A DNA stretch of 48,898 nucleotides from a virus. Shown here one piece after another: positions 8,793 through 48,898 of the stretch (position 1 is the stretch's first letter; the number at the start of each line of letters is the position of its first letter). The stretch covers positions 1 through 48,898 of IMG/VR virus record IMGVR_UViG_3300004463_000741, one strand, 5' to 3'. Under the pieces are notes generated by a model. It was not told the origin of the DNA and ran no database searches. It worked only from the letters and a program-made list of their open reading frames with translations. Position numbers and translations under genes: made by a program.

Positions 8793-8992
8793 GGCGAGTC
8801 CTTCGCGGCGGCCGGCTTGCGGGTGGCCGGCTTCTCGGCGGCGACCGGCGACACCAGCCCGATCGCCGTCAGCCGCGCCACCTCCGCCGCCGGCACGTCC
8901 TCCGGGAGGACCGCGCCCGTGTAGTAGTAGCGCAGCTTCCCGTTCACGTCCTTCACCACGGCCAGGGGCCCGGTGACCTCGTGGCCGGCCAT
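8789..8992 (-). CDS. Small protein downstream of major capsid
   Basis: A 67-residue protein. I chose ATG 8992, which overlaps the capsid stop (ATGA). The sequence GPLAVVKDVNGKLRYYYTGAVLPEDVPAAEVARLTAIGLV has a short beta hairpin followed by a helix and a Lys/Ala/Pro tail. Small proteins of this type follow the major capsid gene in other actinophages, but no role is established from the sequence. Confidence 0.7.
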   Translation of the reverse strand: MAGHEVTGPLAVVKDVNGKLRYYYTGAVLPEDVPAAEVARLTAIGLVSPVAAEKPATRKPAAAKDSP

Positions 8993-15394: not shown

Positions 15395-15791
15395 CCTTCG
15401 GCACCTCCCCCGTCTCACCTGGAGCGGGGGCAGGGGACGCGGCAGGCTGCTCGCCTGCCATCTTCCGCAGCAGGGCCATCACCCGGGTCAGCTCACGCGT
15501 CCCCGCCGTCATCGACAGGCCCTGGTCGACCTGCACGGCCAGCGCCCGCGCGCACGCCGCCTCCGTGGACGCCTGCACGGCCGCCGGCATCCCGGCCAGC
15601 TCCGCCTCCAGCGCGATGCCCGTGAACCCGCGGGCGGGGAGAGCGGCCGGCTGCTTCGGCTTCGGCTTCGGCTTCGCGGACGACGACGGCTTCGGGGCGC
15701 GGCAGGTCTCGCAGCGGCGCGGGAGGGGGCCGCGGGAGCCCGGCTTCCGGACGATCGCGGCGGGGCAGGTCTCGCACTTGGGAGCGCGCAT
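15339..15791 (-). CDS. Terminase small subunit (putative)
   Basis: A 150-residue protein, ATG 15791 with GGAG about 8-9 nt upstream. Residues 1-30 form a Cys-pair zinc knuckle (CETC...RRCETC). A Lys/Pro-rich linker (KPKPKPK) follows, then a helical domain (GIALEAELAGMPAAVQASTEAACARALAVQVDQ and ELTRVMALLRKMA). It directly precedes and overlaps terL. Helical DNA-binding small subunits of actinophages often have this design. The role would be cos recognition. Confidence 0.72.
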   Translation of the reverse strand: MRAPKCETCPAAIVRKPGSRGPLPRRCETCRAPKPSSSAKPKPKPKQPAALPARGFTGIALEAELAGMPAAVQASTEAACARALAVQVDQGLSMTAGTRELTRVMALLRKMAGEQPAASPAPAPGETGEVPKGVTNLASRVAQRRRQAAG

Positions 15792-23460: not shown

Positions 23461-23563
23461 GCGACCTCGTCCCTCCCCGTAGGGGGGAGGGGGACGGGAC
23501 GAGGTCGCTGATGAACGCTCGGCACCTCGTCCCGGGACGAGGTGGGACGAGGTGGGACGAGGT
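23461..23563. repeat. Iteron-like cluster of 10-bp repeats (candidate origin or translocase site)
   Basis: Six exact copies of the 10-mer GGGACGAGGT or its complement ACCTCGTCCC: forward at 23496, 23534, 23544 and 23554 (the last three in direct tandem) and reverse at 23464 and 23524. The copies at 23524 and 23534 abut to make a perfect 22-bp palindrome. Those at 23464 and 23496 form the base of a long hairpin with C/G-rich inner arms. A degenerate copy is at 23419. The cluster begins just downstream of the prim-pol gene stop. Such arrays mark plasmid/phage origins or 8-10-bp TraB-type recognition loci. Confidence 0.75.
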
Positions 23564-23568
23564 GGGCT

Positions 23569-25725
23569 CTAGTGCTCGTCATCGTCGGCCGCCACGAGGT
23601 CCTGGAGCTCTCGGTAGGTACGGGTGTGACGGTGCAGCACCGCGTTGCGCGGACCCGGGTGGCGGGCGACGAACCCCTCGTTCACGAGACAGTCGAGCGC
23701 AGCTCGGATCACCGACGCCCGCCCCGAAATGGATTCCTCGATCTGCTTTCCCGACAAGTCGCCTTCGGTCGTCGACAGAAGACGCGAGATCGACGCCATT
23801 ACGCCGGTGGGCCGGAACGGTGCACGCTGTTCCGCCGGGCGCTCATCGGGAGGCTCAATTACTACAGTGACGCTCGCTCCTGTGGCATCGGATTCCATGA
23901 CCGCCGTCCCCAGGTTCTTGCCGAACTGGGCAATTCCACGAACGTGGCCGCCCCGGTCCTTGTCGACGGTGAGCCGAAGCCGGCCGGTCTGGCCGCGGCC
24001 GAACGGGGCGACGACCTCGACGCTGATCGAGCAGCCGGTCACCATCGCGCGCTTCGCCTGCGCACCGATGCCGCCCTTGCCGCGGGTCTCCTTGTTCTTC
24101 GCGACGTGGTCGATGGTGATGACCGCGGCACCGGTGCGGGCGAGCGGCCGGAGCAACGTCTGCGCGAACCGGGTCGCGTCGCTGTTGGACTCCAGCTCCA
24201 GGCCCAGCAAGGACATGGCCGCGTTGACGCCGTCGATGGTGATGATGGAGAACGCGCGGCTTCCGGTGACCGCGGCCAGGTCGGCCGCGGCGAGCACGTG
24301 CAGGCTCTCGTCGGGGTCGATGTAGACGAAGTGCGCGAGCATCGTCTCCGTGGGCACGCCGAGCGCGGCCAGGCGGCCGGTGATGCCAGCCGCGGCGTCC
24401 TCGAAGTCGAGGTAGAGGACGTCCAGTCCGGCTGTGAGGGCCTGGGCCACGGCGAGCAGGGCCACCCACGTCTTTCCCGACTCGCTCTCGCCCAGCAGGC
24501 CGTTGACCTTGCTCGCGTAGAACAGGGCCTGCTTGTCGGCCCGGGCGAGCACGGCGGGTGGCGGCTCGGCGTTCTCACCGGACAGCACCGTCGCGAGGTC
24601 GCGCGGCCACCACGAGGTGTGCTCATCGGCCTTGGGCGTCTCAGAGGGCTCGGGTAGCCCGCTGTCGTGCGGCGGAGTCGTCGCCGGTGTCGCGACGACC
24701 AACGGCACGGCGTCGGCCGGGCTGGGTGGGGCGACCAGGCCGGCGAACGGCTGGGTGCAGGGATCCTGCGGCTGCTCGGCCTCGGCCTCGGCCACGGACG
24801 GGGTGCCGAGGATGCGCGACAGCGCGCCGGTGAGCGAGCGCCTCCACTCGCGGCTGGCGTCGTCCATGGTGCGCACGCCGGAACGCCCGGGTCGTGTCGC
24901 CTCGGCGATGAAGGCGGTGCGGACCTGGCCGAGTGCCTCGAGTAGCCCGGTGTGCCCCTGCTCGGCGAAGCGCACCATCGTCATCAGGTGGCGCAGCGAT
25001 TCGTGCGCCGACCCGGCCTGCAGCTCCGCGAGCATGCGGTCGCGGGCGTGGGCGGTGGCGCGGCAGGGGCTACCTGGCCCGTGGGTGGCGAACCATCCGG
25101 ACGCCTGCCCGTCGGTGACGTCGGCGAACGTGACCGTCTCGGCGAGCTCGCCACCGGTGAGGCCGGTCAGCCACGCGTCGGGCAGGTCGGGGATCTCGTC
25201 GACCCGGGGCGGCACGGTCGATGCGAGCCCGTCGGGTCGGTACCACCGGTAGACGCGACCCTCGGGGTGCAGCGACGGCCACACCATCGCGTAGCGGTGG
25301 CCGGTGTGGATGGTCTCGATGCCCGGTCCTACCTGGCCGGGCCAGCGCAGTCCCTCCGGGACCCGGTACAGGCGGATCCCGGAGATGCCATCGTCGCGGG
25401 CCGTGGTGATCCAGGTGTCAGGCAGCGAACCCCAGCGCTCCGTCGCCTCGGCGAGCGTGGCGCCGCCGGCCTTGCCCGCGTAGGCGTCGACGTCGATCCC
25501 GACAATGTCGCGGGGCAGTCGCAACGCGATGTTCCCGCCGCCCTCGTCGCGCTTGCTGGTCTCGCACCACGCCTGAACGTCGGCCGTGGAGGGCCACGCA
25601 CCGCCGTGCCCGGTCCAGCCGCTGAGCTGCAGCTTCTTGGTCCGGTACGGAGTGGGGAGAACTCCGACCCAGCCCGCAGCGCGGTAGGTGTGGGCGGCGT
25701 CGCGGTACGGAGTGGGGAGCTCCAC
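23569..25725 (-). CDS. Bifunctional primase-polymerase / AAA+ replicative ATPase
   Basis: A 718-residue replication protein. I chose GTG 25725 (MELPTPYRDAAHTYRAAGW) with GGAAGG upstream; GTG 25767 is possible. Residues 1-190 are a prim-pol domain, including IALRLPRDIVGIDVDAYAG with catalytic-type Asp78/Asp80, TTARDDGISGIRLYRVP and HRYAMVWPSLHPEG. Residues 395-640 form a RepA/KaiC-type ATPase: GLLGESESGKTWVAL Walker A (Lys418), VLYLDFEDAA Walker B-like, and IDHVAKNKETRGKGGIG. The C-terminus is a winged-helix-like domain (LDCLVNEGFVARHPGPR). It would prime and unwind phage DNA. LPTPYR occurs twice near the N-terminus. Confidence 0.9.
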   Translation of the reverse strand: MELPTPYRDAAHTYRAAGWVGVLPTPYRTKKLQLSGWTGHGGAWPSTADVQAWCETSKRDEGGGNIALRLPRDIVGIDVDAYAGKAGGATLAEATERWGSLPDTWITTARDDGISGIRLYRVPEGLRWPGQVGPGIETIHTGHRYAMVWPSLHPEGRVYRWYRPDGLASTVPPRVDEIPDLPDAWLTGLTGGELAETVTFADVTDGQASGWFATHGPGSPCRATAHARDRMLAELQAGSAHESLRHLMTMVRFAEQGHTGLLEALGQVRTAFIAEATRPGRSGVRTMDDASREWRRSLTGALSRILGTPSVAEAEAEQPQDPCTQPFAGLVAPPSPADAVPLVVATPATTPPHDSGLPEPSETPKADEHTSWWPRDLATVLSGENAEPPPAVLARADKQALFYASKVNGLLGESESGKTWVALLAVAQALTAGLDVLYLDFEDAAAGITGRLAALGVPTETMLAHFVYIDPDESLHVLAAADLAAVTGSRAFSIITIDGVNAAMSLLGLELESNSDATRFAQTLLRPLARTGAAVITIDHVAKNKETRGKGGIGAQAKRAMVTGCSISVEVVAPFGRGQTGRLRLTVDKDRGGHVRGIAQFGKNLGTAVMESDATGASVTVVIEPPDERPAEQRAPFRPTGVMASISRLLSTTEGDLSGKQIEESISGRASVIRAALDCLVNEGFVARHPGPRNAVLHRHTRTYRELQDLVAADDDEH

Positions 25726-25834
25726 CGTCGCGTCGTCCTTCCCTGGTAGTTGCACGTGCCCCGCCACGCCTTGCTGCGCGGACGGCCGGCTCGATCCCGG
25801 CACGGGGCTGCCTTGCAGGTGGAGCGAACGAAGC

Positions 25835-26455
25835 TCAGGACGTCGGCGGCGGGAACATCTGCCACGCCACCGCGGGCGCGACGTTGGCGGCCTGGAGGCC
25901 GGCGAGCTGCTCGGGCGTGAGGTGCGGCGGGTAGGGAAGCTCGGCGGCGGCATTCGGCTGTGCAGCTGCGGCCTGTGCAGCTGCGGCCTGCGCGGGCTGC
26001 TGCTCGGGCGCGATGAACGCCGAAGCGGCGGCGGTGTACTCCGCCGAGTGCAGCCAGGCGCCGTCGAGACCCTTCTTCTTCGGCTCGTCGCGGCCGACGC
26101 GCGTCACGAACAGCGTTCCGCCGACCTCGAGCCCCGGCGCACCGGCGGCGCGGATCGCCTCACGCAGCACCTTCTGCAGGTTGCCCTTGACGTAGAACCG
26201 TCGGCGGCCGTCGTCCTCGGCGTTGGCCGGGTCGCGCAGGTCGGTCTGCACGGTGACGACGAGGTGCTGACGCGGGCTCCCGTCGTCCCAGGTGAGCAGC
26301 GCTCCGGAGTCGAAGTCGGTCTGCTGGCGCAGCTCGGGGCGCTCGACGATCTGCCCGCCGCGGCGGGTGCCGATGGGGTCGTTCTTGGTGAACGCGGACG
26401 GGATGGATTCGCCGCCCATGAGGAACTGCTGCTCGGGCGTGAGTGCGCTGGTCAT
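25835..26455 (-). CDS. Probable ssDNA-binding protein of the replication operon
   Basis: A 206-residue protein, ATG 26455 with AGGAG about 11 nt upstream. The first 135 residues form a beta-rich OB-like body: GTRRGGQIVERPELRQQTDF, LLTWDDGSPRQHLVVTVQTD, FYVKGNLQKVLREAIRAAG, GGTLFVTRVGRDEPKKKG. An Ala/Gln-rich linker and an acidic/Pro-rich end follow. Location between exonuclease and prim-pol supports ssDNA binding. I recall this as a widespread actinophage family; the biochemical role is inferred. Confidence 0.7.
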   Translation of the reverse strand: MTSALTPEQQFLMGGESIPSAFTKNDPIGTRRGGQIVERPELRQQTDFDSGALLTWDDGSPRQHLVVTVQTDLRDPANAEDDGRRRFYVKGNLQKVLREAIRAAGAPGLEVGGTLFVTRVGRDEPKKKGLDGAWLHSAEYTAAASAFIAPEQQPAQAAAAQAAAAQPNAAAELPYPPHLTPEQLAGLQAANVAPAVAWQMFPPPTS

Positions 26456-30849: not shown

Positions 30850-31749
30850 ATGGACTCACGACCTCTCACCGAACGTGATCGGCGCATCATCCGACTCCAC
30901 CTCGACTGGCTCGGGCGCAGCGGCGCGACCGAGCGCACCCTGCACCACCGAGGCGAGAACCTCCGCCGCCTCGCCGCACGACTCCCCGTCGAGCTACTCG
31001 ACGCCACCCGCGAGCACCTCGACAACTGGCAGTTCGGGCTGTTCCAGACGATCGCCATGACCAGCGTCGCCACCTACAGCAGCCACGCCCGGATGTTCTA
31101 CGCCTGGGCCGTCGACGCCGGCCACCTCGACAGCGACCCCGCGGCCCGACTCCCCCGCCCGAAGATCCCCAAGCGCCACGCGCGCCCCATTCCCGAGAAG
31201 GACCTCGACGTCCTCCTGGCCGTCGCCCCCGAACCACTCAGGACGTGGCTGATGCTGGCCGGGTACATGGGCCTGCGCGCCCACGAGATCGCGCAGATCA
31301 CCCGCGAGGACGTCACCGAACGCGCGGGCCGGCTCTACCTCTCCGGCATCGGGAAGGGCCGCAAGTCGTTCGGCATGGCGGTCCCCCGCCATGTCGAGCC
31401 GTTCCTGCGGGCGCACCTGACGGGCAGGCCGGGGCCGCTGTGGCGCACGGCCACCGGCATGAAGGTCGGCTCGAAGCAGGCGACCATGGCCGCGTCGGCG
31501 CTGATGCGCGACCTGGACATGCCCTACACGCTGCACTCCCTACGACACCGGTTCGGGACCAGGTTGTGGGACGAGACCCGCGACATGTTGATCGTGCAGC
31601 AGGCGATGCGCCACAGCTCCCCGGACACCACACGGATCTACATCGCCACGACCGACGGTGAGGCGGCAGCCGCGATGGACCGATTGTCGACGACGCTGCG
31701 GCCGAAGCGGGCACGGCGTCGGCCGAGCCCGGGGACGGAGGCTGCGTGA
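30850..31749 (+). CDS. int: Tyrosine integrase
   Basis: A 299-residue recombinase. N-terminal SAM-like core-binding domain (residues 10-95: LHLDWLGRSGATERTLHHRGENLRRLAARL). Catalytic residues are Arg143 in GLRAHEIAQI, His229/Arg232 in TLHSLRHRFG, His255 in QQAMRHSS, and the nucleophile Tyr264 in RIYIATTDG; Lys169 is near the hairpin. The C-terminus is basic. It would integrate the phage into the host chromosome. It ends 2 nt from the stop of the convergent excisionase. Distinct in sequence from the second recombinase at 37319. Confidence 0.93.
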   Translation: MDSRPLTERDRRIIRLHLDWLGRSGATERTLHHRGENLRRLAARLPVELLDATREHLDNWQFGLFQTIAMTSVATYSSHARMFYAWAVDAGHLDSDPAARLPRPKIPKRHARPIPEKDLDVLLAVAPEPLRTWLMLAGYMGLRAHEIAQITREDVTERAGRLYLSGIGKGRKSFGMAVPRHVEPFLRAHLTGRPGPLWRTATGMKVGSKQATMAASALMRDLDMPYTLHSLRHRFGTRLWDETRDMLIVQQAMRHSSPDTTRIYIATTDGEAAAAMDRLSTTLRPKRARRRPSPGTEAA

Positions 31750-31751: not shown

Positions 31752-31940
31752 TCATGGATCCTGCCGCCGGTGGAGCGAGGGGTTGCGCAGCTGCTCGCGG
31801 AGCCGCTCCAGATCCCACCGCATGTGCCCGCCAGGGGTTCGATGGTCGGGCTCGATGAGTCCCTTCTCGACCCACATCTGCATGGCGCGTCGCGAGACGC
31901 CAAGCGCGGCGGCGGCCTGTCCGGTCGTGACGTAAGGCAT
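31752..31940 (-). CDS. xis: Excisionase (MerR-type HTH)
   Basis: A 62-residue protein, ATG 31940. It has the winged HTH_17/BldC pattern VTTGQAAAALGVSRRAMQMWVEKGLIEPDHRTPGGHMRWDLERLREQL, which serves as excisionase in many actinobacterial phages and AICEs. Convergent with int, with 2 nt between the stops. Its minus-strand promoter region contains two 20-bp-spaced direct repeats. Directionality control of integrase is inferred from size, motif and position. Confidence 0.82.
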   Translation of the reverse strand: MPYVTTGQAAAALGVSRRAMQMWVEKGLIEPDHRTPGGHMRWDLERLREQLRNPSLHRRQDP

Positions 31941-32612: not shown

Positions 32613-32915
32613 ATGCGCCGCACCGCTGCCGTCCTCGCCCTGCTCGCGCTCACGCTGGCGGGGTGCGGTGGCCGAACGCCCGCCGAGGAGGCGTTCCTGG
32701 CCGACCTGCAGGAGCGCAGCTCCATGATCGAGCTGCCCGACCCGGACGGCGACCTACGGGACGGCCACGAGGTGTGCGAGGTGCTGGCGGCCACCAAGCC
32801 GGACGAGCGCTACACCACGAGCGGGATCCTGGGAGACCGGATGTTCGGCTTCACCATCGTGTTCGCCGCGCAGGAGCACCCCTGCCCCGAGGTCGACGTG
32901 CCGAGCCCGTTCTAG
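32613..32915 (+). CDS. Secreted lipoprotein, DUF732-like
   Basis: A 100-residue protein with a lipoprotein signal peptide (hydrophobic run VLALLALTLAGC, lipobox Cys18). The mature part follows the DUF732 pattern of actinobacterial secreted proteins: AFLADLQERSSMIELPDPDGDLRDGHEVCEVLAA, with Cys near 55 and a second Cys near the end. Expressed from the lysogeny-side module, it may be a moron that alters the lysogen's surface, for example superinfection exclusion. That role is inference. Its last bases overlap the convergent HTH gene. Confidence 0.75.
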   Translation: MRRTAAVLALLALTLAGCGGRTPAEEAFLADLQERSSMIELPDPDGDLRDGHEVCEVLAATKPDERYTTSGILGDRMFGFTIVFAAQEHPCPEVDVPSPF

Positions 32916-33163
32916 TCCGAGCTGAGCGGGCGCTTCGCCCACCGGCTGACCGTCGCCTCGTGAACGCCGAGGCGCTCCCCGATGGCGGCGAACGTCCAGC
33001 CGCGCGCGTTCAGGCAGCGGACGACGCGAGCCAGGTTCACGGGTCCGCCCTGTAGGGCAGCGCCGAGCGCGAGAAGCCGTTCGTCGTCCATCTCGTCGAG
33101 ATCGGTCTCCCCGTTCATGAGACGGACCAGCGCATCGATCACCTCGGAGTTCAGGTCCGCCAC
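32912..33163 (-). CDS. HTH regulator of the accessory/translocase module
   Basis: An 83-residue protein, GTG 33163. C-terminal helix-turn-helix LNARGWTFAAIGERLGVHEATVSRWAKRP; the N-terminal half is acidic (NGETDLDEMDDERLLAL). It is transcribed away from the operon beginning at 33272 and separated from it by paired palindromes, the classic plan of a divergent self-regulating repressor. A TACGAT -10 candidate (33171-33176) lies 7 nt before the GTG, with no ribosome site, so it may be leaderless. Confidence 0.78.
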   Translation of the reverse strand: MADLNSEVIDALVRLMNGETDLDEMDDERLLALGAALQGGPVNLARVVRCLNARGWTFAAIGERLGVHEATVSRWAKRPLSSD

Positions 33164-33183
33164 GCGACGGATCGTAGGGCACG

Positions 33184-33250
33184 CCTTGCGACTTGCACTG
33201 CTGCAAGCCGCAAGGGCACACTAGGCCTCCAACTTGCAGCCCTGCAAGTT
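33184..33250. promoter_or_regulatory. Two palindromic operators between divergent regulator and translocase operon
   Basis: AACTTGCAGCCCTGCAAGTT (33231-33250) is a perfect palindrome with 9-bp arms and a 2-bp centre. CTTGCA (33192-33197) and TGCAAG (33202-33207) repeat the same TTGCA core. CCTTGCG (33184-33190) and CGCAAGG (33209-33215) form an outer dyad around it. The two centres are 41 bp apart, about four helical turns. This strongly suggests cooperative binding by the HTH protein encoded at 32912-33163, to control both itself and the 33272-37138 operon. Confidence 0.72.
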
Positions 33251-33271
33251 CCGAGACGGAGGCCGATCATC

Positions 33272-33481
33272 ATGCTGACGACCCTGCTCATCCTCGCCGT
33301 ACTCCTGACGCTCAGCCTCGCCGCCTACGCCACCCTCCACCTGCGCCACCTGGAGCACGCCCTGCGCGGGCAGGGCCTGGAGATCGGCGCGCTGTGCGAG
33401 CGCGTCGGGGTGACCGACCAGGACGTCGACGCCTACCACGCCCGCATCCACCCGCGGCACGTCGAGGCGGGTGAGCGGTGA
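33272..33481 (+). CDS. Small membrane-anchored protein opening the translocase operon
   Basis: A 69-residue protein with GGAGG before the ATG. N-terminal membrane segment MLTTLLILAVLLTLSLAAYATLHL, then a helix (RHLEHALRGQGLEIGALCERVGVTDQDVDAYHARIHP). The next gene starts on its stop (TGATG). Type II single-pass topology is likely. First gene behind the operators. Confidence 0.68.
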   Translation: MLTTLLILAVLLTLSLAAYATLHLRHLEHALRGQGLEIGALCERVGVTDQDVDAYHARIHPRHVEAGER

Positions 33482-33636
33482 TGGGCTGGGGCAGTGGCAA
33501 GCGGGGCGCGGTCGACCCCGAGCCCGACGTCAAGGTGCACCACACCGCGGGCTGCGTGCTGTGCAGCCGGACCGACCAGCACACGCACACGCAGGACGAG
33601 TGGCGCGCGATGCTCGACGCGAAGGACGGCCGGTGA
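33481..33636 (+). CDS. 51-residue small protein
   Basis: ATG 33481 shares its A with the preceding stop; TGA at 33634-33636 overlaps the next ATG the same way. The peptide MGWGSGKRGAVDPEPDVKV...GCVLCSRTDQHTHTQDEW has CxxC plus two His, so likely a zinc knuckle. Its opening MGW is shared with the next gene. No known family. Confidence 0.6.
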   Translation: MGWGSGKRGAVDPEPDVKVHHTAGCVLCSRTDQHTHTQDEWRAMLDAKDGR

Positions 33637-33944
33637 TGGGCTGGTTCAGCCGCTCCCACAGCGGGATGCCCGATGTCGGCCAGGGCGAGGGCTGGTCGCC
33701 GTCGTCGTGGCGCAGCGCCCCCCGCCGTCGAGTGCCGGTCTCCAAGCTGGAGGCGACGAACCGCGGCCACTACCTGAACCCGCGCACCGCGGCGAAGTAC
33801 GCCCGCGGCGGGGGCGGCGACCCGTACGTCGTGGAGTCGGGCGGGCGCTACTACCTGGCCGACGGCCACCACCGTGCCGCCGCGGCTGTCGCCCGCGGGG
33901 ACCGGTACATCACGGTGCGGGTGAAGCGCCCGGGTGACCGGTGA
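33636..33944 (+). CDS. ParB-like domain protein
   Basis: A 102-residue protein, ATG 33636. The C-terminal half has the ParB/sulfiredoxin-like core: DPYVVESGGRYYLADGHHRAAAAVARGDRYITVRVK. GHHRAAAA corresponds to the ParB 'G-x-R-R/H-x-x-A' box that in ParB proteins binds CTP. The N-terminus is basic and Ser-rich. No HTH DNA-binding domain follows, so it is not a full partition ParB. Its neighbours (DUF2637, FtsK) suggest a DNA-transfer or segregation role. Confidence 0.68.
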   Translation: MGWFSRSHSGMPDVGQGEGWSPSSWRSAPRRRVPVSKLEATNRGHYLNPRTAAKYARGGGGDPYVVESGGRYYLADGHHRAAAAVARGDRYITVRVKRPGDR

Positions 33945-34195
33945 CCGCGCCCACCGAGACCGGCGTCGAGCGGTGGGAGGACACCGGCCCTCTCCCGGTG
34001 ATCCTCCCGGTCGGTTGGGACGACACCCCGCCGCCCGGGAGCGACGTCGTCGCCCAGTACCCGCCGCGCCAGCGCGGGAGCTTCACCCACGCCCAGGTCG
34101 CCGGGATCGACGCCCGGGTGGCGCGCGGCGCGCTGCCGTGGTGGCGACGGTGGCGGGAGCCGCGCCCGCCCACCTGGGAGGAGACGTGCCGGTGA
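33941..34195 (+). CDS. 84-residue hypothetical protein of the translocase operon
   Basis: GTG 33941 overlapping the preceding stop. Pro/Trp-rich: RWEDTGPLPVILPVGWDDTPPPGSDVVAQYPPRQRGSFTH, then a basic Trp cluster (ALPWWRRWREPRPPTW). It may be a peripheral membrane adaptor. Overlaps the DUF2637 gene by 4 nt. Confidence 0.6.
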   Translation: MTAPTETGVERWEDTGPLPVILPVGWDDTPPPGSDVVAQYPPRQRGSFTHAQVAGIDARVARGALPWWRRWREPRPPTWEETCR

Positions 34196-34827
34196 CCGGG
34201 CGCCGGGCGCTGGGCGCGCTGCTCGCCGTCGTCGCCCTGGCCGCCGCCGTGCTCTCGTTCGACGCCCTGCGCCTGCTCGCGCTGACGTGCGGGTTCGACG
34301 CCCGCCTGGCGTGGCTGCTCCCGGTTGTCGTCGACGCAGGCGCCGCCGCCGGATCGCTGGTGTGGCTCGGCCAGTGGGCGCCCGCCCCCGCCCGCCGGTT
34401 CGCCCGGGTGCTGGCGCTGCTGCTGCTCGGCGGGAGCGTCGCCGGCAACGCGCTCGGCCACGGCCTGGCGGCGTTCCGGGTGGCGGCGCCGTGGTGGGTG
34501 GTGGTGCTGGTGTCCGCCGTGGCGCCCGCCGTGCTCGGCGCCGTCGTGCACCTCGCCGTGCTGGCGTCCGGGCGGGAGCGGGAGGACGTCCCCGCCCCGC
34601 TCCCGCCCGGAGACCAGTCGGTGGGAGAACGACGTGAGGAGGTGGGTGAGGAGGTGGGCGACACCGGGCGGGAGCCGCCCACCGAGCCGCCCGCTCCCGC
34701 GAGTGACCGGGTGGGCGAGCTGCTCGCCGCGGGCGCCGGACGCCGGAGGGTCGCCCAGGCGCTCGGGATCAGTGAGCACGAGGCGCGCCAGTTGCTGGCC
34801 GGCCGGACCAACGGGGCGGCCCGGTGA
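34192..34827 (+). CDS. DUF2637 (SpdB-like) membrane protein with C-terminal HTH
   Basis: A 211-residue protein, GTG 34192 (GGAGGAG about 9 nt upstream; GTG 34186 also possible). Four membrane segments lie in residues 5-130. The signature SFDALRLLALTCGFDARLAWLLPVVVDAGAAAGSLVWLG is the DUF2637 pattern found in Spd/transfer-region proteins of Streptomyces plasmids and AICEs. After an acidic linker, DRVGELLAAGAGRRRVAQALGISEHEARQLLAG looks like an HTH. Spd proteins help plasmid spread between mycelial compartments. Direct partner of the FtsK-like gene. Confidence 0.82.
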   Translation: MTGRRALGALLAVVALAAAVLSFDALRLLALTCGFDARLAWLLPVVVDAGAAAGSLVWLGQWAPAPARRFARVLALLLLGGSVAGNALGHGLAAFRVAAPWWVVVLVSAVAPAVLGAVVHLAVLASGREREDVPAPLPPGDQSVGERREEVGEEVGDTGREPPTEPPAPASDRVGELLAAGAGRRRVAQALGISEHEARQLLAGRTNGAAR

Positions 34828-34991
34828 ACACCGACCTGCTCGTGTTCGCCATCGTCCTGGCCGCCCTGATCGTGGCCGCCTACTCGAAGCCGGGGCGCAA
34901 GGCGATCGGCGGCGTCATCTCCAAGGACCGCAAGGGCCGGACCACGCTGGTGATCTGGCCCGCCGGGAAGAAGCGGAAGAAGCGCCGATGA
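34824..34991 (+). CDS. 55-residue membrane protein with basic tail
   Basis: GTG 34824 (GTGA overlap). One membrane span (LLVFAIVLAALIVAAY) then a Lys/Arg-rich tail ending KKRKKRR. It overlaps the translocase ATG at 34988 (ATGA). The cationic cytoplasmic tail could touch DNA or the translocase. Present in the same relative position as small Tra-operon proteins of actinomycete elements, though I cannot name a family. Confidence 0.65.
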   Translation: MNTDLLVFAIVLAALIVAAYSKPGRKAIGGVISKDRKGRTTLVIWPAGKKRKKRR

Positions 34992-37138
34992 CCGAGCCGG
35001 GTGTCGACCTGGAGAAGCGCGACCGCAGCGACGTCGTGCTCGACGGCGAGGTCGTGGAGCGGGAGCAGCGCCAGACCGTGTACGGGCGGATCATCCGGCC
35101 GCGGGCCGACGCCGTCGTCACCTACTTGGGCGCGACCGGGACCGTGGCCGTGGCGGACCGGGTGTGGCGGCGGTCGGTGCGGGTGGGGTGGACGACCGGG
35201 CAGGGGGCGCTGTCGTGGTGCCGCCGCGCCGGGCGGGCGGTCACCCACGGCGTGCTGCGCGAGCAGATCCGCCTTGCCTACCTCGCCGGGAACGCCGAGG
35301 AGCTGGCCAAGCGCGCCGAGCAGCTGGAGAAGGCCAAGAGCGCGCGGATGCAGCGGCTGCTCGAGCTGCCCCGCGCCGCGCTCGGCCTGCTCGTGCTCGC
35401 CGGTGGCGCCCTGGCGCTCGTGGTGGCGCTGCTCGTGGCAGGTGCGGGCGTCGCCCAGCTGGCGCCCGGCGGGACCGACTGGGCGGGATGGTGGGGCGGC
35501 GTCGGCGGTGTCCTGTCGCTGGCCGGCACGGTGCTGCACCTGCTCGTCGTGGTCGCGCTCCCGGTGGTCGCGCTCCCGGTGGTGCTGCTGCTGGCGTGGC
35601 TGGAGGGTCGCCGCGTCGGGGCACCACCGTTCTGGCTGCTGACCGCCGCCGACGCCGACGACCTCGTGATCGACGAGACGTCGATCGCTCGGGCGCTGGA
35701 CGCGCTGCGCATCGCGCAGATCTCCGCCTACCTCAAGGCCGGCTCCCCGCTGCAGTTCCTCACCCCGGCCCGGGTCGACGGCCGCGGCACGCACGCGGTG
35801 ATCCGGCTCCCGGCCGGCGTGCCCGCCGAGCGGATCGCGCGCCGGCGTGCCGACCTGGCGACCGGGCTGCACCGGCTGTCCAAGGAGGTGTGGCCGACGA
35901 CCGGCTCGGAGGCCGGGATCCTCGACCTGTGGATCGCAGACAAGGGCGCGCTCGCCGAGGGCGCCGGGCCGTACCCGCTGCTCGAGGACGGCACGACGGA
36001 CTTCTTCAAGGGCTTCCCGGCCGGCAAGACGCTGCGCGGGACGCCGGTGACGGCGCCGATGATGGGCCGGAACACGATCGTCGGCGGCATGCCGGAGCAG
36101 GGCAAGAGCAGTGCCGCCCGGTGCGAGGTCGCGGGGGCCGCGCTCGACCCGACCGTGGAGATCCGCATCTGGGTGCCCGACGCCAACTTCGACTTCGAGC
36201 ACTTCCGGCCGCGGTGCTCCCGCTACGTGATGGGCGCCGAGGACGCCGACATCGAGCGGATCCTGGAGGACCTCCGCGAGCTTCACGCCGAGGTGCAGAT
36301 CCGCGGGCAGCTGCTGGTGCGCTACGAGATCGCCGAGGTCAACCGGCACTACGCGTCGAAGAACGTGGGGCTGCACCCGATCGTGGCGCTGCTCGAGGAG
36401 GCGCACGTCGCCATGCAGCACGGCGAGCACGGTGCAGAGATCTCGCGGCTGGTCACTGACATCGTGCGGCTGGGCCGCAAGCGCGCCATCCACTTCATCG
36501 TGTCGACCCAGGCCCCGACCGCGAACTCGGTGCCGCGCGACGTCACCCGCAACTGCTCCAACGGGATCGCGTTCGCCGTCGGCGACCACGTCGCGAACGA
36601 TGCCCTGCTCGGGCAGGGTGCCTACGCGGGCGGGCACCGCGCCACCGAGCTGATCCCGGGCACCGACCGCGGGACCGCGCTCGTGAAGGGCTTCGCCGGT
36701 CAGCGGTCCGAGGTCGTGCAGTTCTACTTCATCGACGTGGCGGAGGTGCCGGCGATCATCGAGCGCAGCCTGGACGCGATCGCGCGGGCCGGCCGGAAGG
36801 TGCCGGGCACCGATCCGTCGGCGGCCTCACTGCTCGTGGAGCGCGACCTGCTCGAGGACCTGGACGCGGTGCTCGGCACGGATCCGCTGCCGATCGCGGA
36901 CGTGGCGTCGCTGCTGTCGGCGCACGCCCCGGGGTGGGCGCCCTACCGGTCGCTGACGGGCAAGGCGCTGCGTCAGCGGCTGGCGCAGCGGTACGGGGTG
37001 AAGGTGCCGAGCACCGGGAACCGGTGGCCGCTCGACCCGGTGGCGGTGCGGGAGGCGCTGGCGCGGCGGGCGACGAGTGATCTCGACGAAGGGCCCGACG
37101 AGGGCCCGGTTTCGGGCCTCTCTCGTGGCCTGCCGTAA
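34988..37138 (+). CDS. FtsK/SpoIIIE-type DNA translocase (TraB/TraSA-like)
   Basis: A 716-residue protein, ATG 34988. Residues 1-125 are cytoplasmic and charged. Two to three membrane spans lie in 129-206. Residues 210-350 form a linker resembling the FtsK alpha domain. The motor domain has Walker A IVGGMPEQGKSSA (Lys373) and Walker B PIVALLEEAH (Glu470/Glu471), then IVSTQAPTANSVPRDVTRN. The C-terminal 100 residues (LLSAHAPGWAPYRSLTGKALRQRL) look like a winged helix for sequence reading. This is the plan of TraB/TraSA proteins, which transfer double-stranded plasmid DNA as the sole conjugation protein. It is rare in a phage genome. Confidence 0.9.
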   Translation: MTEPGVDLEKRDRSDVVLDGEVVEREQRQTVYGRIIRPRADAVVTYLGATGTVAVADRVWRRSVRVGWTTGQGALSWCRRAGRAVTHGVLREQIRLAYLAGNAEELAKRAEQLEKAKSARMQRLLELPRAALGLLVLAGGALALVVALLVAGAGVAQLAPGGTDWAGWWGGVGGVLSLAGTVLHLLVVVALPVVALPVVLLLAWLEGRRVGAPPFWLLTAADADDLVIDETSIARALDALRIAQISAYLKAGSPLQFLTPARVDGRGTHAVIRLPAGVPAERIARRRADLATGLHRLSKEVWPTTGSEAGILDLWIADKGALAEGAGPYPLLEDGTTDFFKGFPAGKTLRGTPVTAPMMGRNTIVGGMPEQGKSSAARCEVAGAALDPTVEIRIWVPDANFDFEHFRPRCSRYVMGAEDADIERILEDLRELHAEVQIRGQLLVRYEIAEVNRHYASKNVGLHPIVALLEEAHVAMQHGEHGAEISRLVTDIVRLGRKRAIHFIVSTQAPTANSVPRDVTRNCSNGIAFAVGDHVANDALLGQGAYAGGHRATELIPGTDRGTALVKGFAGQRSEVVQFYFIDVAEVPAIIERSLDAIARAGRKVPGTDPSAASLLVERDLLEDLDAVLGTDPLPIADVASLLSAHAPGWAPYRSLTGKALRQRLAQRYGVKVPSTGNRWPLDPVAVREALARRATSDLDEGPDEGPVSGLSRGLP

Positions 37139-37318
37139 CTCGGCTCACTCGCGTAACTTCCGCAGGTCAGAGGCCGGGTGATCCACTGTGGGAGGCGGGT
37201 TAGGAATCTAACTCGCCGTGGTCGGTGGCTAACCCGCCAGCGGTCTCGCCTGTGGGCCGATTCAGCACGAAACTGAAAGTTCGCAGGCACGCAAGAGCGC
37301 GACAGGAAGGCTGCCGAG
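37139..37318. promoter_or_regulatory. Repeat-rich region upstream of second recombinase (candidate recombination site)
   Basis: 180 bp without a gene. GGCGGGTTAG (37194-37203) pairs with CTAACTCGCC (37208-37217, one mismatch, 4-bp gap) and again perfectly with CTAACCCGCC (37229-37238). Closer to the gene, CGAAACTGAAAGTTCG (37268-37283) is a near-palindrome. Two inverted 10-mers and a short core near a XerC/D-like gene are what an attachment or resolution site would show, but a regulatory operator is equally possible. Confidence 0.48.
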
Positions 37319-38242
37319 ATGTCCTCGACGAGCACCCCGCACGGGGGTACCCGAACGCCGCGCGAAGACCTGACGGAGGACTGGCTGATGTCCCAGCGGG
37401 CCCCCTCCACGGCCGGGCCCTACCGCATCGCCATCACCGCGTTCATCGCCTGGTGCGAGCGCGAGCACGTCGACCCGCTCGTGGCGACCCGGCGCGACAT
37501 CGACCGGTACCGGCACTACCTCGCGAGCCCCGGCCGGCCACGCGGGCCGCTCGGGCCGGCGTCCATCTACCGGCACCTGTCCACGATCTCGTCGTGGTAC
37601 CGGTTCGGGATCCAGGACGGGCGCCTGGAGGTGAACCCCGTCGACGCGATCAAGCGCCCCCGCGTGCAGAACGAGTCGCTGTCGGAAGGCCTCACCGCGG
37701 CAGAGGCGCGCGGCTTGCTGGCCGCGTCGATCGCCGACGGGCCGCGCGCGGCAGCGCTGGTGCACCTGCTGCTCGCGACCGGCGCACGGGTGTCGGAGGT
37801 GTGCTCGGCTTCGACGTCGGACCTCGGGTGGGACGACGACGGCGCGCGGACGTTGAAGATCGTGCGGAAGGGCGGGCACCCTGCTCGGGTGCCGATCGCC
37901 CCGGCGTTCTGGCGGGTCGTGCAGGCCTACCTCGACGGCCGACCGCAAGGTGCCGAGGGGCCGTTGCTGCTGACCGAGCGAGGCGCGATGTCTCGCGGCG
38001 CGGCGTGGTCGATCGTGCACAGGCTGGCCGCCGAGGTGGCCCCACGGAAGCGGATCAGCCCGCACAGCTTGCGGCACACCGCGGCGACGATCGCGCTGGA
38101 CGCGGGCCAGCCGCTGCAGGAGGTGCAGGAGATGCTCGGGCACCGGGCGCCGGCCACGACGTTGCGGTACGACCGGGCCCGGGGGACGCGCGGGCGGGCG
38201 GCTTCGCGAGCGGTGGCCGATGTGCTCACTGGCCAGCCCTGA
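37319..38242 (+). CDS. Second tyrosine recombinase (XerC/D-like)
   Basis: A 307-residue protein, ATG with GGAAGG upstream. N-terminal core-binding domain (residues 15-105). The catalytic set is complete: Arg157 in LLATGARVSEVC, Lys184, His249/Arg252 in ISPHSLRHTAATI, His275 in EMLGHRAPATTL, and Tyr284. It resembles host-type XerC/D or plasmid recombinases rather than the phage integrase at 30850. Following the FtsK gene, a translocase-activated recombination system (as in FtsK-XerCD-dif) is conceivable. It ends 8 nt before a terminator. Confidence 0.9.
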   Translation: MSSTSTPHGGTRTPREDLTEDWLMSQRAPSTAGPYRIAITAFIAWCEREHVDPLVATRRDIDRYRHYLASPGRPRGPLGPASIYRHLSTISSWYRFGIQDGRLEVNPVDAIKRPRVQNESLSEGLTAAEARGLLAASIADGPRAAALVHLLLATGARVSEVCSASTSDLGWDDDGARTLKIVRKGGHPARVPIAPAFWRVVQAYLDGRPQGAEGPLLLTERGAMSRGAAWSIVHRLAAEVAPRKRISPHSLRHTAATIALDAGQPLQEVQEMLGHRAPATTLRYDRARGTRGRAASRAVADVLTGQP

Positions 38243-38250
38243 GACGCCGA

Positions 38251-38288
38251 ACAGCGCCCCCGCCCGGGGAAGTGGGCGGGGGCGCTGT
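38251..38288. terminator. Bidirectional terminator between convergent modules
   Basis: ACAGCGCCCCCGCCC (38251-38265) pairs perfectly with GGGCGGGGGCGCTGT (38274-38288): a 15-bp stem with an 8-base loop. It lies between the plus-strand recombinase stop (38242) and the minus-strand late gene stop (38308), so it can end both transcripts. No long T-run is present. Confidence 0.8.
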
Positions 38289-38307
38289 CGCGTGCGGGGA
38301 GCGGACG

Positions 38308-38736
38308 TCAGGGCTGCTCGGCCGGCTGCTCCGGCTCGGCCGCGACCGGCTCGTCGACCACGGGCTCGGCCGGCGCGGTGACGTCGGGCAGGTCCGGCTT
38401 CGCCGCGAACTTCCCGGCGATGAGGTTGAGCTGCTCGCGCACCGGCTGGGCGGCGGCCAGGTCCCCGGCCTCGTCGGCGGCGGCCTCGCCCTCCAGCTCG
38501 GCGACCCGCGCACGCAGCGCGGCCTCGGACGCCAGGAGCGCGTCGACGGGGGCGGTCAGGTCGGACAGGTCCTGGGCGAGCTCGGCGAGGAAGTCGCGGT
38601 CGGCGGACATGAGGGTCTCCAGTCGGGTGAAGTGGGCGGGGATCTGCAGGACGACGGCGCGCCGGATGTCGCGGACGTCGACGCGCATGTAGGCGGTGGC
38701 CTCGCGGGTCTCGCGGAGCCAGGTGAGCCAGCGCAC
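38308..38736 (-). CDS. Last late gene: coiled-coil protein after the holin
   Basis: A 142-residue protein from GTG 38736; an ATG at 38610 with GGAG 8 nt upstream gives a 100-residue alternative (MSADRDFLAELAQDLSDL). The second half is a coiled coil (LLASEAALRARVAELEGEAAADEAGDLAAA) and the C-terminus is Pro/Glu-rich. Small coiled-coil proteins near the lysis genes occur in many actinophages. They may be structural or lysis accessory. No function assigned. Confidence 0.65.
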   Translation of the reverse strand: MRWLTWLRETREATAYMRVDVRDIRRAVVLQIPAHFTRLETLMSADRDFLAELAQDLSDLTAPVDALLASEAALRARVAELEGEAAADEAGDLAAAQPVREQLNLIAGKFAAKPDLPDVTAPAEPVVDEPVAAEPEQPAEQP

Positions 38737-42457: not shown

Positions 42458-44884
42458 CTACACCAGCTCCAGATCCACCGACTCGACACCGGTCTCCGTC
42501 ACCTGCACCGTGCGCTTGCGGATCCGGTACGCCCCGGTCAGGCCCAGCTGATCCGTGCCCAGCTCGAGCTGCACCGTGTCCCCGACGTCGTAGGCGCCCA
42601 GGTCGGCGTCCGGGGTGACCCGCATCTGCGGCCCCGGGACGATCAGGGCGTGCGAGCGGGCGGCGAGCAGGGCGCGCACGTGGTCGTCGAGGGTCGCCTG
42701 CTCGGAGACGTCCTGCCACGACCCCATCGCCGCCGACAGGCCGAAGCTCGCCGCCAGCTCGGCGTTCACCTGGAACGACGACAGCCCGCCGTCCGACCCC
42801 GCCGACGAGGATGTGCCGAACGCCAGCGACGCCAGATCGCCGGGCGCCACCGAGCACATCACGTCCGGGCTGGCGATGACCCGACGATCCAGCACCACCG
42901 CCGACGGGCCCGACGACCGGTCCACCCCCTTGAACGGGTGCCACAGCTGCAGCTGCCGGGTGGTCGGGTCGATTTCCGCGTCGAAGCCGCCGTCGACCGC
43001 GCCCAGCTCCTCGATCCGCTGCGCCACCTTGTGCTGCTCGTTGCGCACATACGACCGGTCGCGCAGCCGCCCCGACGCGGAGACCCGCGAGGTGTCGATG
43101 CCGTAGTGGCCGTGGCCGTAGGAGCTGTTCTGCCACTGGTCGATCAGCGCGGCCGCGATCAGGTGCTGGTCGACCTGGTCGAACCGCATGTCGGCGAGCA
43201 CGATCATCCGCTGCGTGTAGCTGAGCAGCCCGCCCGCGACGAGCTCCACGTCGGGGCCGCGGCGGTGCCACCCGGCGAGCGGGCCCGCGGCCACGATCTG
43301 CCCGTCACGCAGCAGCCGCAGCTCGGTGGCCTGCCGGTCCGGGCCGAGCAGGCGCTGCGCCACCAGGTCGGAGATGGACGCGACCTGCACCGTGGCGGTC
43401 AGCTCCTGCGGCCGGCTGAGCACGTCGGCGTAGCGCAGGCCGTTCCACTTGATCCGGTCCACGACGATCAGCGCGGGAGGGCCGGACTGCTGCGGGATCC
43501 GGGCGATGCACTGCAGCTCGTAGCCGGACTGCGTGGTGTCAACGAGCCCGGCCAGGCGCGCCAGGTCGATCGTGACGCTGAACGACGGCTCGCCGAACGC
43601 CTCGGCGGTGGGGATCCCGGTCGGGGAGACGGTGACCGGGCCGGCCGTGAGGACGGCCACCCCGAACGCTTCGGCACTGGGGATGCCGGCCGGGTAGAGC
43701 CGCATCGACACCGACGGCGACCCGAAGGCCTCGCCCGAGGCGATACCGGCCGGTGAGACGGTGACCGCCCCCGCGGCCAGGACCGTGACGCCGAAGGCCT
43801 CCGCGGACGGGATGCCGGTGACCGTGACAGTGACCGCGCCGACGACGACGGCCGGAGTGCCGAACGCCTCCGCGGACACGATGCCGGTCGGGCTGATCAC
43901 GTTCGCGACGCTCGGCGTGCCGAACGCTTCCATGCTCGGGATCCCGGCCGGGAGCAGCGTGACCGCGCCAGGCGTGACCGTCGGCGTGCCGAACGCCTCC
44001 GCCGACGGGATGCCGGTCGGGGACACGAGCCCGCCGACGACGACCGTCGGGGACCCGAACGCCTCCGCCGACGCGATGGCGGTCGGGTAGATCGTGAGGT
44101 TCACCTGCGGCAAGCCGAACGCCTCGGCGGTGGGGATCCCGGAGGGCGCGACCGCTACCAGCCCCGGCGTCACGACCGGCGTGCCGAAGGCCTCCGCCGA
44201 CGCGATCGACGGCACTGTCACCTGCTGCGCGCTCGACATCGGGCGCAGCGCCACGGTGATCGCCACCCAGGCGGCCGTGCCGAACCCGAAGTCGTCGTCG
44301 ACGGCCAGCGCGTTCGAGCCGGTCGCCCCCGCCGCCCCCAGCGCCTTGCGTGTCGCGGCGAGCGCGCCGTCCGAACCGACCGTCGTGATGTAGCTGCCGC
44401 CGCCGTAGCTGAGCGTGAAGCCGTTGGTCGGGGTCGCGAACCCGGTGCCGCCGCCGTTGTCGGCGTTCGCGAAGAACGACACCGCGTAGGCGTCGTCGGT
44501 CGAGGTCGTGACGGACGGGGCGGTCGCCGTGGTCGTGGTCCCGGTCGCGGCGGCAGGAGTAGTGACGTCCAGCGGCGTGGAGGTGTCGACGCCGCGGAAG
44601 GCGCTGATCACACCGTAGAACCCGCTGGTGCCACCCCCGGTCCACGCGCCGGAGGTGTCGCCCGAGGTGAAGGTGCGCCACCACACCGACAGCCGACCGG
44701 TGCTGGTGCCGAGCTGGATCTGGGTCCACCCCTGGCCGGACGGGGGTGTCGGGGTGGCGCCCGCCCGGGAGTACATGTGGGCGAGCAGCACGTCATCGGT
44801 GGCCAGGCCCGCCGGGTGGGCCGGCGTGACCGACGCCGTCGAGCTGGTGGCGAGCGCGCTCGCGCCGACGAAGCTGATCGCCAC
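42458..44884 (-). CDS. Large minor tail protein with ten EAFG repeats
   Basis: An 808-residue protein in three parts. Residues 1-218 are a jelly-roll-like N-terminal domain (TQIQLGTSTGRLSVWWRT, GFYGVISAFRGVD). Residues 227-440 are ten repeats of 20-23 residues with an EAFG core (ISAEAFGTPVV type). Residues 441-808 form a baseplate-like C-terminal domain (SGYELQCIARIPQQSGPPALIVVDRIKWNG, ..ISDLVAQRLL, VDLELV). EAFG repeats are familiar from mycobacteriophage and rhodophage tail proteins. Likely part of the baseplate or side fibre. Confidence 0.82.
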   Translation of the reverse strand: MAISFVGASALATSSTASVTPAHPAGLATDDVLLAHMYSRAGATPTPPSGQGWTQIQLGTSTGRLSVWWRTFTSGDTSGAWTGGGTSGFYGVISAFRGVDTSTPLDVTTPAAATGTTTTATAPSVTTSTDDAYAVSFFANADNGGGTGFATPTNGFTLSYGGGSYITTVGSDGALAATRKALGAAGATGSNALAVDDDFGFGTAAWVAITVALRPMSSAQQVTVPSIASAEAFGTPVVTPGLVAVAPSGIPTAEAFGLPQVNLTIYPTAIASAEAFGSPTVVVGGLVSPTGIPSAEAFGTPTVTPGAVTLLPAGIPSMEAFGTPSVANVISPTGIVSAEAFGTPAVVVGAVTVTVTGIPSAEAFGVTVLAAGAVTVSPAGIASGEAFGSPSVSMRLYPAGIPSAEAFGVAVLTAGPVTVSPTGIPTAEAFGEPSFSVTIDLARLAGLVDTTQSGYELQCIARIPQQSGPPALIVVDRIKWNGLRYADVLSRPQELTATVQVASISDLVAQRLLGPDRQATELRLLRDGQIVAAGPLAGWHRRGPDVELVAGGLLSYTQRMIVLADMRFDQVDQHLIAAALIDQWQNSSYGHGHYGIDTSRVSASGRLRDRSYVRNEQHKVAQRIEELGAVDGGFDAEIDPTTRQLQLWHPFKGVDRSSGPSAVVLDRRVIASPDVMCSVAPGDLASLAFGTSSSAGSDGGLSSFQVNAELAASFGLSAAMGSWQDVSEQATLDDHVRALLAARSHALIVPGPQMRVTPDADLGAYDVGDTVQLELGTDQLGLTGAYRIRKRTVQVTETGVESVDLELV

Positions 44885-47448: not shown

Positions 47449-48898
47449 TCAGCTGGGCATGCGCATACGCCACTGCGCGGCGCGCGCCACCTCGACCGGG
47501 TCGGCCGCGGAGCTGGTGACAGTGATCGGGCGGGCCTCACGCACAGCAGCGGCAAGGTCCCCGAACTGAGCGCGTAGCGCCCCCACCTCGGAGCGGAGCT
47601 GACCGTTCGCGGACAGCACCGCCGCGGCGATCGGGGCCGTCGATACCTGCGTGCCGCGGCGTACGTCCATGCCCTGACGGAGGCCAGCCACAACCGCGGT
47701 GGCCGCGACTGGGCTGCTCGCGGCGGCGCTACCGATGCCGCGCGGAAGTAGGCCGAACCCCATGCGTTGGGCTGTAAGCCCCAAGATCGACACCGATCGC
47801 GGTGAGGAGTTGACCGGGATGAACGCCTCGTCGCCCTGCATCCGGTCGCCGATGATCCGCAGCTGCCTGGCGGGCACCACCTCGGCGCGGGCCGCGGACA
47901 TCCACCGCATCCCGCCCGAGGCGTAGGCGGTGGCGTAGGCGCCACGGGCCCGGGGTACCGCGTAGGCGCCGAGCGCGCGTTCGGGGATGACCTTCTTCCC
48001 GACCCCGGTCGACAGGCCGCCGACGGACTGGATGTAGACGGTGTGGGTCGAGGTCTTCGGGATGCGGTTCAGGACGGGGGTTGCCTGGTCGTTCGCCGCG
48101 ATCGTCATCAGCGCCCGGGCGGCGTTGGTGTCACGCAGGATCGCGCCGAGCACCTGCTGCGCCGGGATGGACTGGCCGTTGATGGTGACCGTGCCGGCGC
48201 CCGAGCTGATCGCCGACAGGGTGTCGCGCAGGACCGCGGCGGCGGGCACGGCCTGCCCGTTGATCGTGACCGTCGCCCCGGACGTCTCGATCTGGTTGAG
48301 GATCATCGACAGCGCCGTCGAGGCGGGCACGGCCTGCCCGTTGATGGTGACCGTGGCCGCTCCGGCGGCGATCTGCCCGAGCACCGTCTGCAGCGCCACC
48401 CCGGCCGCCATCGGGTTGCCGTCGATGTTCACCGACCCGCCGGCGCCGTTCACGACCCCGATCAGGGCGTCGAGGTCGGTGAGCGCCTGCTGCGTTTCCA
48501 GGTTCACCGCGACGTCGCCGTCGCGCATCCCGTCGAGCAGGGTCTGGGTGTCGACGATCTTTCCGGTCTCGGGGTCGACGGCGATCGTGACGGTGCGCCC
48601 GTCCGGCAGTGTGAGTACCTGCGTGGCGAAACCCAGCGCGGCAGCTCCCGCAGACAGGGCTTGCAACTGTGCGTCGGACAGGTTGGCGACGTGGCCGAGC
48701 AAGGCATCGCGGGCCGGCCCCTCGGCGGCCGCGGCCATGTTGAGCAGAGTCGCCCCGTACGCCGCCGTGCCCGCGTCCGCGCCACCCAGCCCTTCGGCGA
48801 CCCGCTGTGCCGATTGGGCCACCTGATCGGCGCTGGCCACGAACTCGTCGAGCGCCGCGGCCGCCTCCTCCGACCCGGCCCCGTGTTCGCGCACTGCG
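47449..48898 (-). CDS. Tape measure protein, C-terminal part (runs off window end)
   Basis: The frame is open at 48898, with at least 482 codons. Residues 100-250 contain four to five repeats with the core TINGQAVPA (GATVTINGQAVPA, GTVTINGQSIPA), followed by a region rich in Ala, Gly and Val (GLLPRGIGSAAASSPVAATAVVAGLRQG). The C-terminal 120 residues end in RAAQWRMRMPS. The GTG near 48892 is not a likely true start because the frame continues upstream. Taken with the N-terminal part at 1-1351 this would be a protein of about 930 or more residues, if the same gene. Confidence 0.85.
   Translation of the reverse strand, partial: AVREHGAGSEEAAAALDEFVASADQVAQSAQRVAEGLGGADAGTAAYGATLLNMAAAAEGPARDALLGHVANLSDAQLQALSAGAAALGFATQVLTLPDGRTVTIAVDPETGKIVDTQTLLDGMRDGDVAVNLETQQALTDLDALIGVVNGAGGSVNIDGNPMAAGVALQTVLGQIAAGAATVTINGQAVPASTALSMILNQIETSGATVTINGQAVPAAAVLRDTLSAISSGAGTVTINGQSIPAQQVLGAILRDTNAARALMTIAANDQATPVLNRIPKTSTHTVYIQSVGGLSTGVGKKVIPERALGAYAVPRARGAYATAYASGGMRWMSAARAEVVPARQLRIIGDRMQGDEAFIPVNSSPRSVSILGLTAQRMGFGLLPRGIGSAAASSPVAATAVVAGLRQGMDVRRGTQVSTAPIAAAVLSANGQLRSEVGALRAQFGDLAAAVREARPITVTSSAADPVEVARAAQWRMRMPS

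Follow-up and report, generated by a model that had tools for sequence, protein, structure and literature searches.

A temperate siphovirus with a putative actinomycete-type DNA transfer module and a recombinant translocase gene

In Streptomyces, the translocase TraB uses a winged helix at its C-terminus to bind clt repeats; it assembles into hexamers, makes pores and transports double-stranded DNA intact (PMC3583192, PMC3218068). Actinomycete integrative conjugative elements (AICEs) have been surveyed by looking for the joint occurrence of Int, Rep and Tra (PMC3218068). For the Streptomyces plasmid-phage pZL12, the passages cited report replication, transfer and a lytic phage cycle (PMC4487206, PMC3583192), and its transfer is ascribed there to a major tra gene and two adjacent genes (PMC3583192); gene 71c of the corresponding record (phage ZL12, GQ919031) is FtsK-like. 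Since pZL12 provides a precedent from 2010, one element acting both as a phage and in transfer is not new. FtsK has also been annotated in the actinobacterial phage P1312 (PMC4569894) and in cluster P1 mycobacteriophages (PMC5764923). In the literature searched, of which the coverage was incomplete, no description was found of a DUF2637-translocase module in siphophages or of an anchor/motor exchange with AICEs.

The DNA analysed here, called the window below, is the virus record IMGVR_UViG_3300004463_000741 of IMG/VR, 48,898 bases in length. On the minus strand, PHROGs identified genes for terminase, portal, capsid, adaptor, tape measure and tail proteins, among them those for the terminase large subunit (12758-15418; phrog_9, E=3e-40), the portal protein (11482-12738; phrog_113, E=1.5e-92) and the major capsid protein (8992-9918; phrog_1650, E=1e-86). 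With terminase, portal, capsid, tape measure, integrase and repressor all present, the set is that of a temperate siphovirus. Identity to the window is 81% for TerL, 77% for the capsid and 69% for the portal in a sister phage, G002 (locus L003; IMG/VR 2911771518_000002), which from its identifier is taken to be an isolate. The tape-measure gene is divided between both ends of the window (1-1351 and 47449-48894), and in an alignment with the 1338-aa protein of G002 the left piece covers residues 1-398 and the right one residues 856-1266. Because both ends of the record fall in this one gene, the window is a permuted, nearly closed phage genome that lacks about 1.4 kb; no sequence in it was recognised as host DNA. 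The initial annotation had called it an otherwise complete siphovirus; the siphovirus gene set was indeed found by PHROGs, but the genome is not quite complete, since about 450 tape-measure codons are absent relative to G002. Tandem repeats with units of 69 and 195 bp lie within a minor tail protein gene (43757-44206). The host is probably Pseudonocardia or a related actinomycete.

The phage integrase, which is the first tyrosine recombinase (30850-31749, plus strand; PF00589, E=8e-14), is accompanied by a MerR-like excisionase candidate (31752-31940, minus strand; PF00376, 33.7 bits at a cut-off of 28.2). A Prim-Pol/AAA replication protein is encoded on the minus strand at 23569-25953 (PF09250, E=1.2e-16; PF13481). 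Adjoining its gene, GGGACGAGGT occurs six times without mismatch and in both orientations (23464-23563), an array that includes every copy in the window and likely consists of replication iterons or forms a protein-binding array, a binding site for the translocase being one candidate; an array of this type was not found in G002. It is the sole strong repeat array in the window and lies 11 kb from the motor gene, and searches for tandem repeats, direct repeats and 8-mer clusters revealed no clt-like repeat cluster beside the motor gene itself. Two Pseudonocardia species have four copies of GAACCGGC within 102 bp (L044:9320-9421 and L045:9133-9234), preceding the AICE motor gene by a few hundred bases, and this cluster is a clt candidate; GAACCGGC shows no clustering in the window. 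The L045 contig, from Pseudonocardia acidicola and carrying an AICE-type motor, has an assembly coverage of 896, so the element may be multi-copy or excised.

The transfer operon occupies 33272-38242 on the plus strand, between the integrase gene and the lysis and tail genes, and every gene which the initial annotation had named there was present at the coordinates given. Its first gene encodes a 69-aa membrane protein (33272-33481; a 49% identical homologue in L003), and is followed by genes for a VapB/ParB-like small protein (33636-33944; PF23719, 28.5 bits at a cut-off of 27) and for an 84-aa protein (33941-34195), the C-terminal part of which is kept in L003 (63% over 38 aa). Next comes the membrane protein predicted to belong to DUF2637 (SpdB-like), an identity that a profile search placed well above the cut-off (34192-34827; PF10935, 41.4 bits against 22.8, E=1.8e-10); it has a C-terminal helix-turn-helix-like tail. 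TM55, a 55-aa membrane peptide with a basic tail (34824-34991), has a homologue of 59% identity in the corresponding position of L003. It is followed by the 716-aa FtsK/TraB-type dsDNA translocase (34988-37138) and by the second tyrosine recombinase (37319-38242), whose XerC/D-like nature agrees with a PF00589 match (E=9.6e-25). The DUF2637, TM55 and translocase genes overlap by four bases at their junctions (34192-34195, 34824-34827 and 34988-34991), as in a coupled operon. A divergent HTH regulator is encoded on the minus strand at 32912-33163 (PF13384, 33.6 bits at a cut-off of 24.6). The view that the module has its own regulator gains from the recurrence of a divergent HTH gene beside the motor in G002 and in the phage G070, where a 55% identical homologue of the window regulator adjoins the motor gene. 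The divergent promoter region (33164-33271; inverted repeat I3) contains CTTGCA/TGCAAG palindromes, a possible operator judging by the sequence, which are not conserved in L003. At the right edge of the block, a perfect 15-bp inverted repeat (38251-38288) forms a hairpin dividing the convergent transfer and lysis/tail transcription units; it is conserved in L003, where the DNA matching 38239-38321 is 80% identical.

Association of DUF2637 with an FtsK protein, claimed for actinomycete plasmids, does occur on plasmids of Streptomyces and Pseudonocardia. The mer plasmid of Pseudonocardia broussonetiae has a DUF2637 gene in its transfer operon (L221:20000-22913; NZ_CP053565.1), to which the membrane domain of the window gene is 76% identical at the nucleotide level over 376 bp; there the gene that it precedes encodes not an FtsK motor but an ATPase with a TraM-recognition domain.

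No Pfam family matched the translocase, and it was recognised through PHROGs (phrog_1358, FtsK/SpoIIIE-like, E=4e-25), its fold and its phylogeny; it has a Walker A motif, GMPEQGKS, and gives weak matches to plasmid TraB and EssC motors. An AlphaFold model based on a 32-sequence alignment (mean pLDDT 83) has FtsK motor domains as its best solved matches (Foldseek E 7e-16; Z 30.6, rmsd 3.5 over 350 residues); the next best is the conjugation coupling protein TcpA. The motor is thus predicted to have the RecA-type fold of FtsK/SpoIIIE with its Walker A motif. The N-terminal membrane spans proposed earlier correspond to two long hydrophobic helices at about 131-210 in the model, and hydropathy gives two to three membrane segments in most homologues. 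Region 636-700, modelled as helices with short strands, may be a winged helix; a match to the FtsK gamma domain (PF09397) was absent. With the NCBIfam equivalog NF041214 (plasmid_TraB) the translocase scored 20.1 bits, membership requiring more than 800 bits, but the characterised TraB of pSVH1 itself scored 41 bits, also below the cut-off, so that this model covers a narrow subgroup and is uninformative here.

A scan of GTDB species genomes yielded 46 relatives of the motor. Identity over the aligned segment reached 67-68% in the closest of them, and the majority came from Pseudonocardia, Prauserella, Kribbella, Amycolatopsis, Frankia and related taxa. Most of the relatives have the AICE layout of membrane protein, FtsK, Prim-Pol, further genes and Xis; Prim-Pol is missing at L053, L059, L060, L067, L072, L073 and L085, which may be either AICEs or prophages. 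Characterised relatives of these AICE translocases are those of the pSAM2, pMEA100 and pSE211 types. In a maximum-likelihood motor tree, six chromosomal FtsK proteins stood apart with 100% support. One clade of 30 motors, including that of L003, was found in viruses only, and a second clade of 42, to which the window belongs, consisted of 35 genome motors and 7 scattered virus motors; the rows for pZL12, pCM32 and pZL1 have long branches, and their placement is unsure. Among the genome members of the window's clade, at least L078 is a prophage, with a terminase about 22 kb away, and at the genome locus L053 a terminase lies 18 kb away. The initial annotation had assigned the motor to the transfer type of actinomycete plasmids and AICEs and had named grouping with chromosomal FtsK as the finding that would count against it; in the tree the translocase nests among those of AICEs, away from chromosomal FtsK. 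Chromosomal FtsK identity was ruled out by this placement and by the missing gamma domain.

Comparison of separate parts of the translocase gave two different pictures. Over residues 1-215, identity is 60% with L003 and 34-40% with the Pseudonocardia AICE proteins, whereas residues 216-355 are 84-86% identical to the AICE proteins L044 and L047 and 43% to L003, and residues 356-600 are 78% and 28% identical, respectively; the C-terminal part is about 70% identical to the Pseudonocardia AICE copies. A tree of the N-terminal domain joins the window with L003 (support 100/98), and a tree of the motor domain joins it with L044 and L047 (support 100/98). By blastn, DNA homology to L003 extends from 34824 to 35640 and homology to the AICE L044 from 35572 to 37089, which places the crossover within about 69 bases. 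This recombination zone (35572-35640), also evident from sliding identity, lies directly after the last membrane helix, and the reading frame is intact across it. By these comparisons the gene is a recombinant of a phage-type anchor (34988-35602, up to about codon 205; 60% aa identity to L003) and a motor with C-terminal recognition part of Pseudonocardia AICE type (35603-37138; 78-86% aa identity to L044/L047), a structure absent from the reading in the initial annotation. The evidence for the swap is taken from the separate domain trees and the DNA junction, not from the full motor tree. From the many AICE members that surround the window motor, we infer that the phage kept its own anchor and 55-aa peptide and took the motor/recognition half from the AICE pool. 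The Nonomuraea motor L085:9593-11905 is apparently the product of a second anchor/motor swap, its anchor being nearest to that of phage L010 (67%) and its motor nearest to L002 (78%).

The block in G002 stands at the same place and comprises genes for a lipoprotein, the divergent HTH protein, the 69-aa membrane protein, DUF2637, the 55-aa peptide, the translocase and a recombinase, followed by convergent lysis/tail genes as in the window. Absence of the block from all related phages, the other finding named in advance as adverse, was therefore not observed. For viruses in general, a profile scan of IMG/VR with an alignment as query found 37 records with the motor, compared with two loci when the single window protein was used, and an added scan with the L003 protein brought the number to 41 virus records, the window included. 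At least 29 of the 41 also contain terminase or portal; 25 have a phrog_9 terminase, 20 a PF04860 portal, and G005 another portal type. DUF2637 is present in 14 of the 41, in 13 of which its gene precedes that of the motor at a distance of 0.4-2.0 kb and on the same strand. Since the head genes differ among motor-bearing phages (portals of phrog_113, PF04860, phrog_104 and phrog_2662), the module probably entered several phage lineages. Among 50,697 phage records, the window motor had no relative at E 1e-5 except a 23% Bacillus phage match, and the motor proteins altogether gave weak Bacillus/Staphylococcus matches only. One relative is complete: pPaSha2 of Pseudonocardia alni (L111; CP052773.1, 1-41938), deposited as a plasmid, is a circular record of 41,938 bp with genes for terminase, portal, protease, capsid, holin, integrase, DUF2637 and FtsK, and is apparently an unrecognised phage-plasmid. 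It was typed as non-mobilizable, and its description mentions neither phage nor conjugation. As for phage-plasmid traits, the window has an integrase together with the iteron-like array, and this relative is a complete circular record.

Spd proteins aid spread within the mycelium. On balance we favour the reading that this temperate siphovirus carries a working actinomycete-type DNA transfer module by which phage DNA would be pumped between cells or hyphal compartments. It builds on the gene content, the AICE kinship of the motor, the recombination junction and the conservation in related phages, together with the motor fold of the predicted model. The phage DNA would be excised, or replicated as a circle, and the translocase would bind the circular form through its C-terminal part, the presumed site of DNA recognition. 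A motor of the FtsK type, presumably a hexamer with a pore and anchored by the N-terminal helices, TM55 and the DUF2637 protein, would then pump intact double-stranded DNA to a neighbouring cell or across hyphal cross-walls, and the integrase would establish the phage DNA in the recipient. The phage could thereby spread free of particles within the mycelium and possibly between mycelia. The partner membrane proteins of the motor in AICEs are not DUF2637 by Pfam, so the compatibility of the partners is presumed. The recombinant motor, itself unexpected, raises the likelihood of the functional claim and renders it readily testable.

Alternatively, the motor and the Xer-like recombinase could act inside the cell, resolving multimers or positioning or segregating the circular phage genome in the manner of FtsK-XerCD at dif. 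A tyrosine recombinase does follow the motor in the window, and a different one occupies the same place in L003; Xer2-like genes are close to the motor in two Actinomadura genomes, and the FtsK-like protein of phage P1312 was annotated as a DNA segregation protein (PMC4569894). However, the recombinases of the two sister phages differ in kind (27% identity) while the anchor and TM55 are conserved, and the C-terminal half of the translocase is of the AICE transfer protein type. Because the recombinase was replaced while the anchor and peptide were kept, and because the recognition half derives from transfer proteins, such a role is less likely than transfer; the lack of a gamma domain and of kinship with chromosomal FtsK speaks against it as well, and we regard it as unlikely.

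Slightly less probable again is that the block is cargo, acquired from an AICE or plasmid and of no present use to the phage. Of the 25 long records whose portal is related, 4 have the motor, namely the window, G002, G069 and G070, and the motor is thus accessory; G002, G069 and G070 are the records above 40 kb with a capsid at least 72% identical. This sporadic occurrence would fit with cargo, as would the variation among close relatives, since the position and orientation of the motor in G069 and G070 are unlike those in the window; G069 has an AICE-type DUF3307 gene near it. The dN/dS of the motor is 0.26-0.35 between the window and the AICE copies and 0.07 between two AICE copies, values that are rough because of the extreme base composition. 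The motor is thus under constraint, in keeping with the transfer reading, but this constraint may be weaker in the phage than among AICEs, again as cargo would predict. On the other hand, the operon is intact and overlapping, the layout in G002 is identical despite a very different motor, the recombination preserved an exact fusion of anchor and motor, and the virus-only clade of 30 motors indicates long residence in phages.

It is improbable, though conceivable, that the module acts on other elements by interfering with, excluding or hijacking AICEs or plasmids that share its motor family. The motor half is 78-86% identical to AICEs of the probable host group, so competition for the same site or partners is possible, but a full anchor, the ATPase motif and the partner genes are retained, none of which a decoy would need. 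A hybrid assembly or an AICE lying beside a prophage, which might be suspected from a virus record of uncertain source and from the integration sites that AICEs and prophages in general share, has a negligible chance of being correct, as phage genes flank the block on both sides, the record ends in one tape-measure gene, and the same block in G002 and a similar layout in the complete circular pPaSha2 rule out a chimera.

Extending the transfer reading to a widespread set of actinobacterial temperate phages is more tentative, and we put it forward as a proposal that could well fail. Such phages would spread in two modes, as virions and by TraB-type conjugation of the circular double-stranded prophage, keeping a phage-specific anchor with DUF2637 and TM55 and exchanging the motor/recognition half with resident AICEs. 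If true, this exchange would let one element adopt the transfer specificity of the other. Phages and conjugative elements are usually viewed as separate routes of gene movement, and a family of motor-swapping phages would blur the line; filamentous hosts would have a virus crossing the mycelium without lysis. Elements of this kind can be misfiled by surveys in which integrase, Rep and FtsK define an AICE, or capsid genes a phage. Through the anchor/motor junction it can be tested which half of a TraB-type pump sets partner and DNA specificity.

Of the known systems, the AICE translocases of the Tra/TraSA class in Pseudonocardia, Prauserella, Kribbella and other genera resemble that of the window in having an FtsK motor behind a membrane anchor, and AICEs likewise hold Int, a Xis candidate and Prim-Pol within the element. 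The window differs from them in its phage-type anchor, its DUF2637 partner, a Prim-Pol gene away from the motor, and complete virion genes. By published AICE criteria (PMC3218068), it does unite integrase, Tra and Rep/Prim-Pol in one element of 30-60 kb, but its int lies between rep and tra on the linear map, contrary to the rule given for AICEs in the same source; the terminase, portal, capsid and tail genes rule out that it is an AICE. TraB of Streptomyces pSVH1 and its relatives are membrane-anchored FtsK-type motors of the same fold family with a spd gene upstream, but the window translocase is about 30% identical or less, and clt repeats were not found in the window. Plasmid-phage pZL12 is likewise a phage genome with an FtsK-like tra gene and an adjacent membrane gene; unlike the window, it is a 90-kb plasmid-phage maintained by ParAB, and its FtsK-like protein is remote, on a very long branch. 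In P1312 the FtsK-like protein has been read as a segregation protein, whereas the role proposed for the window motor is transfer. Finally, pPaSha2 shares with the window the order of integrase, regulator, small genes, DUF2637, FtsK and then lysis/tail genes, as well as complete head genes, although its motor belongs to another lineage of the tree.
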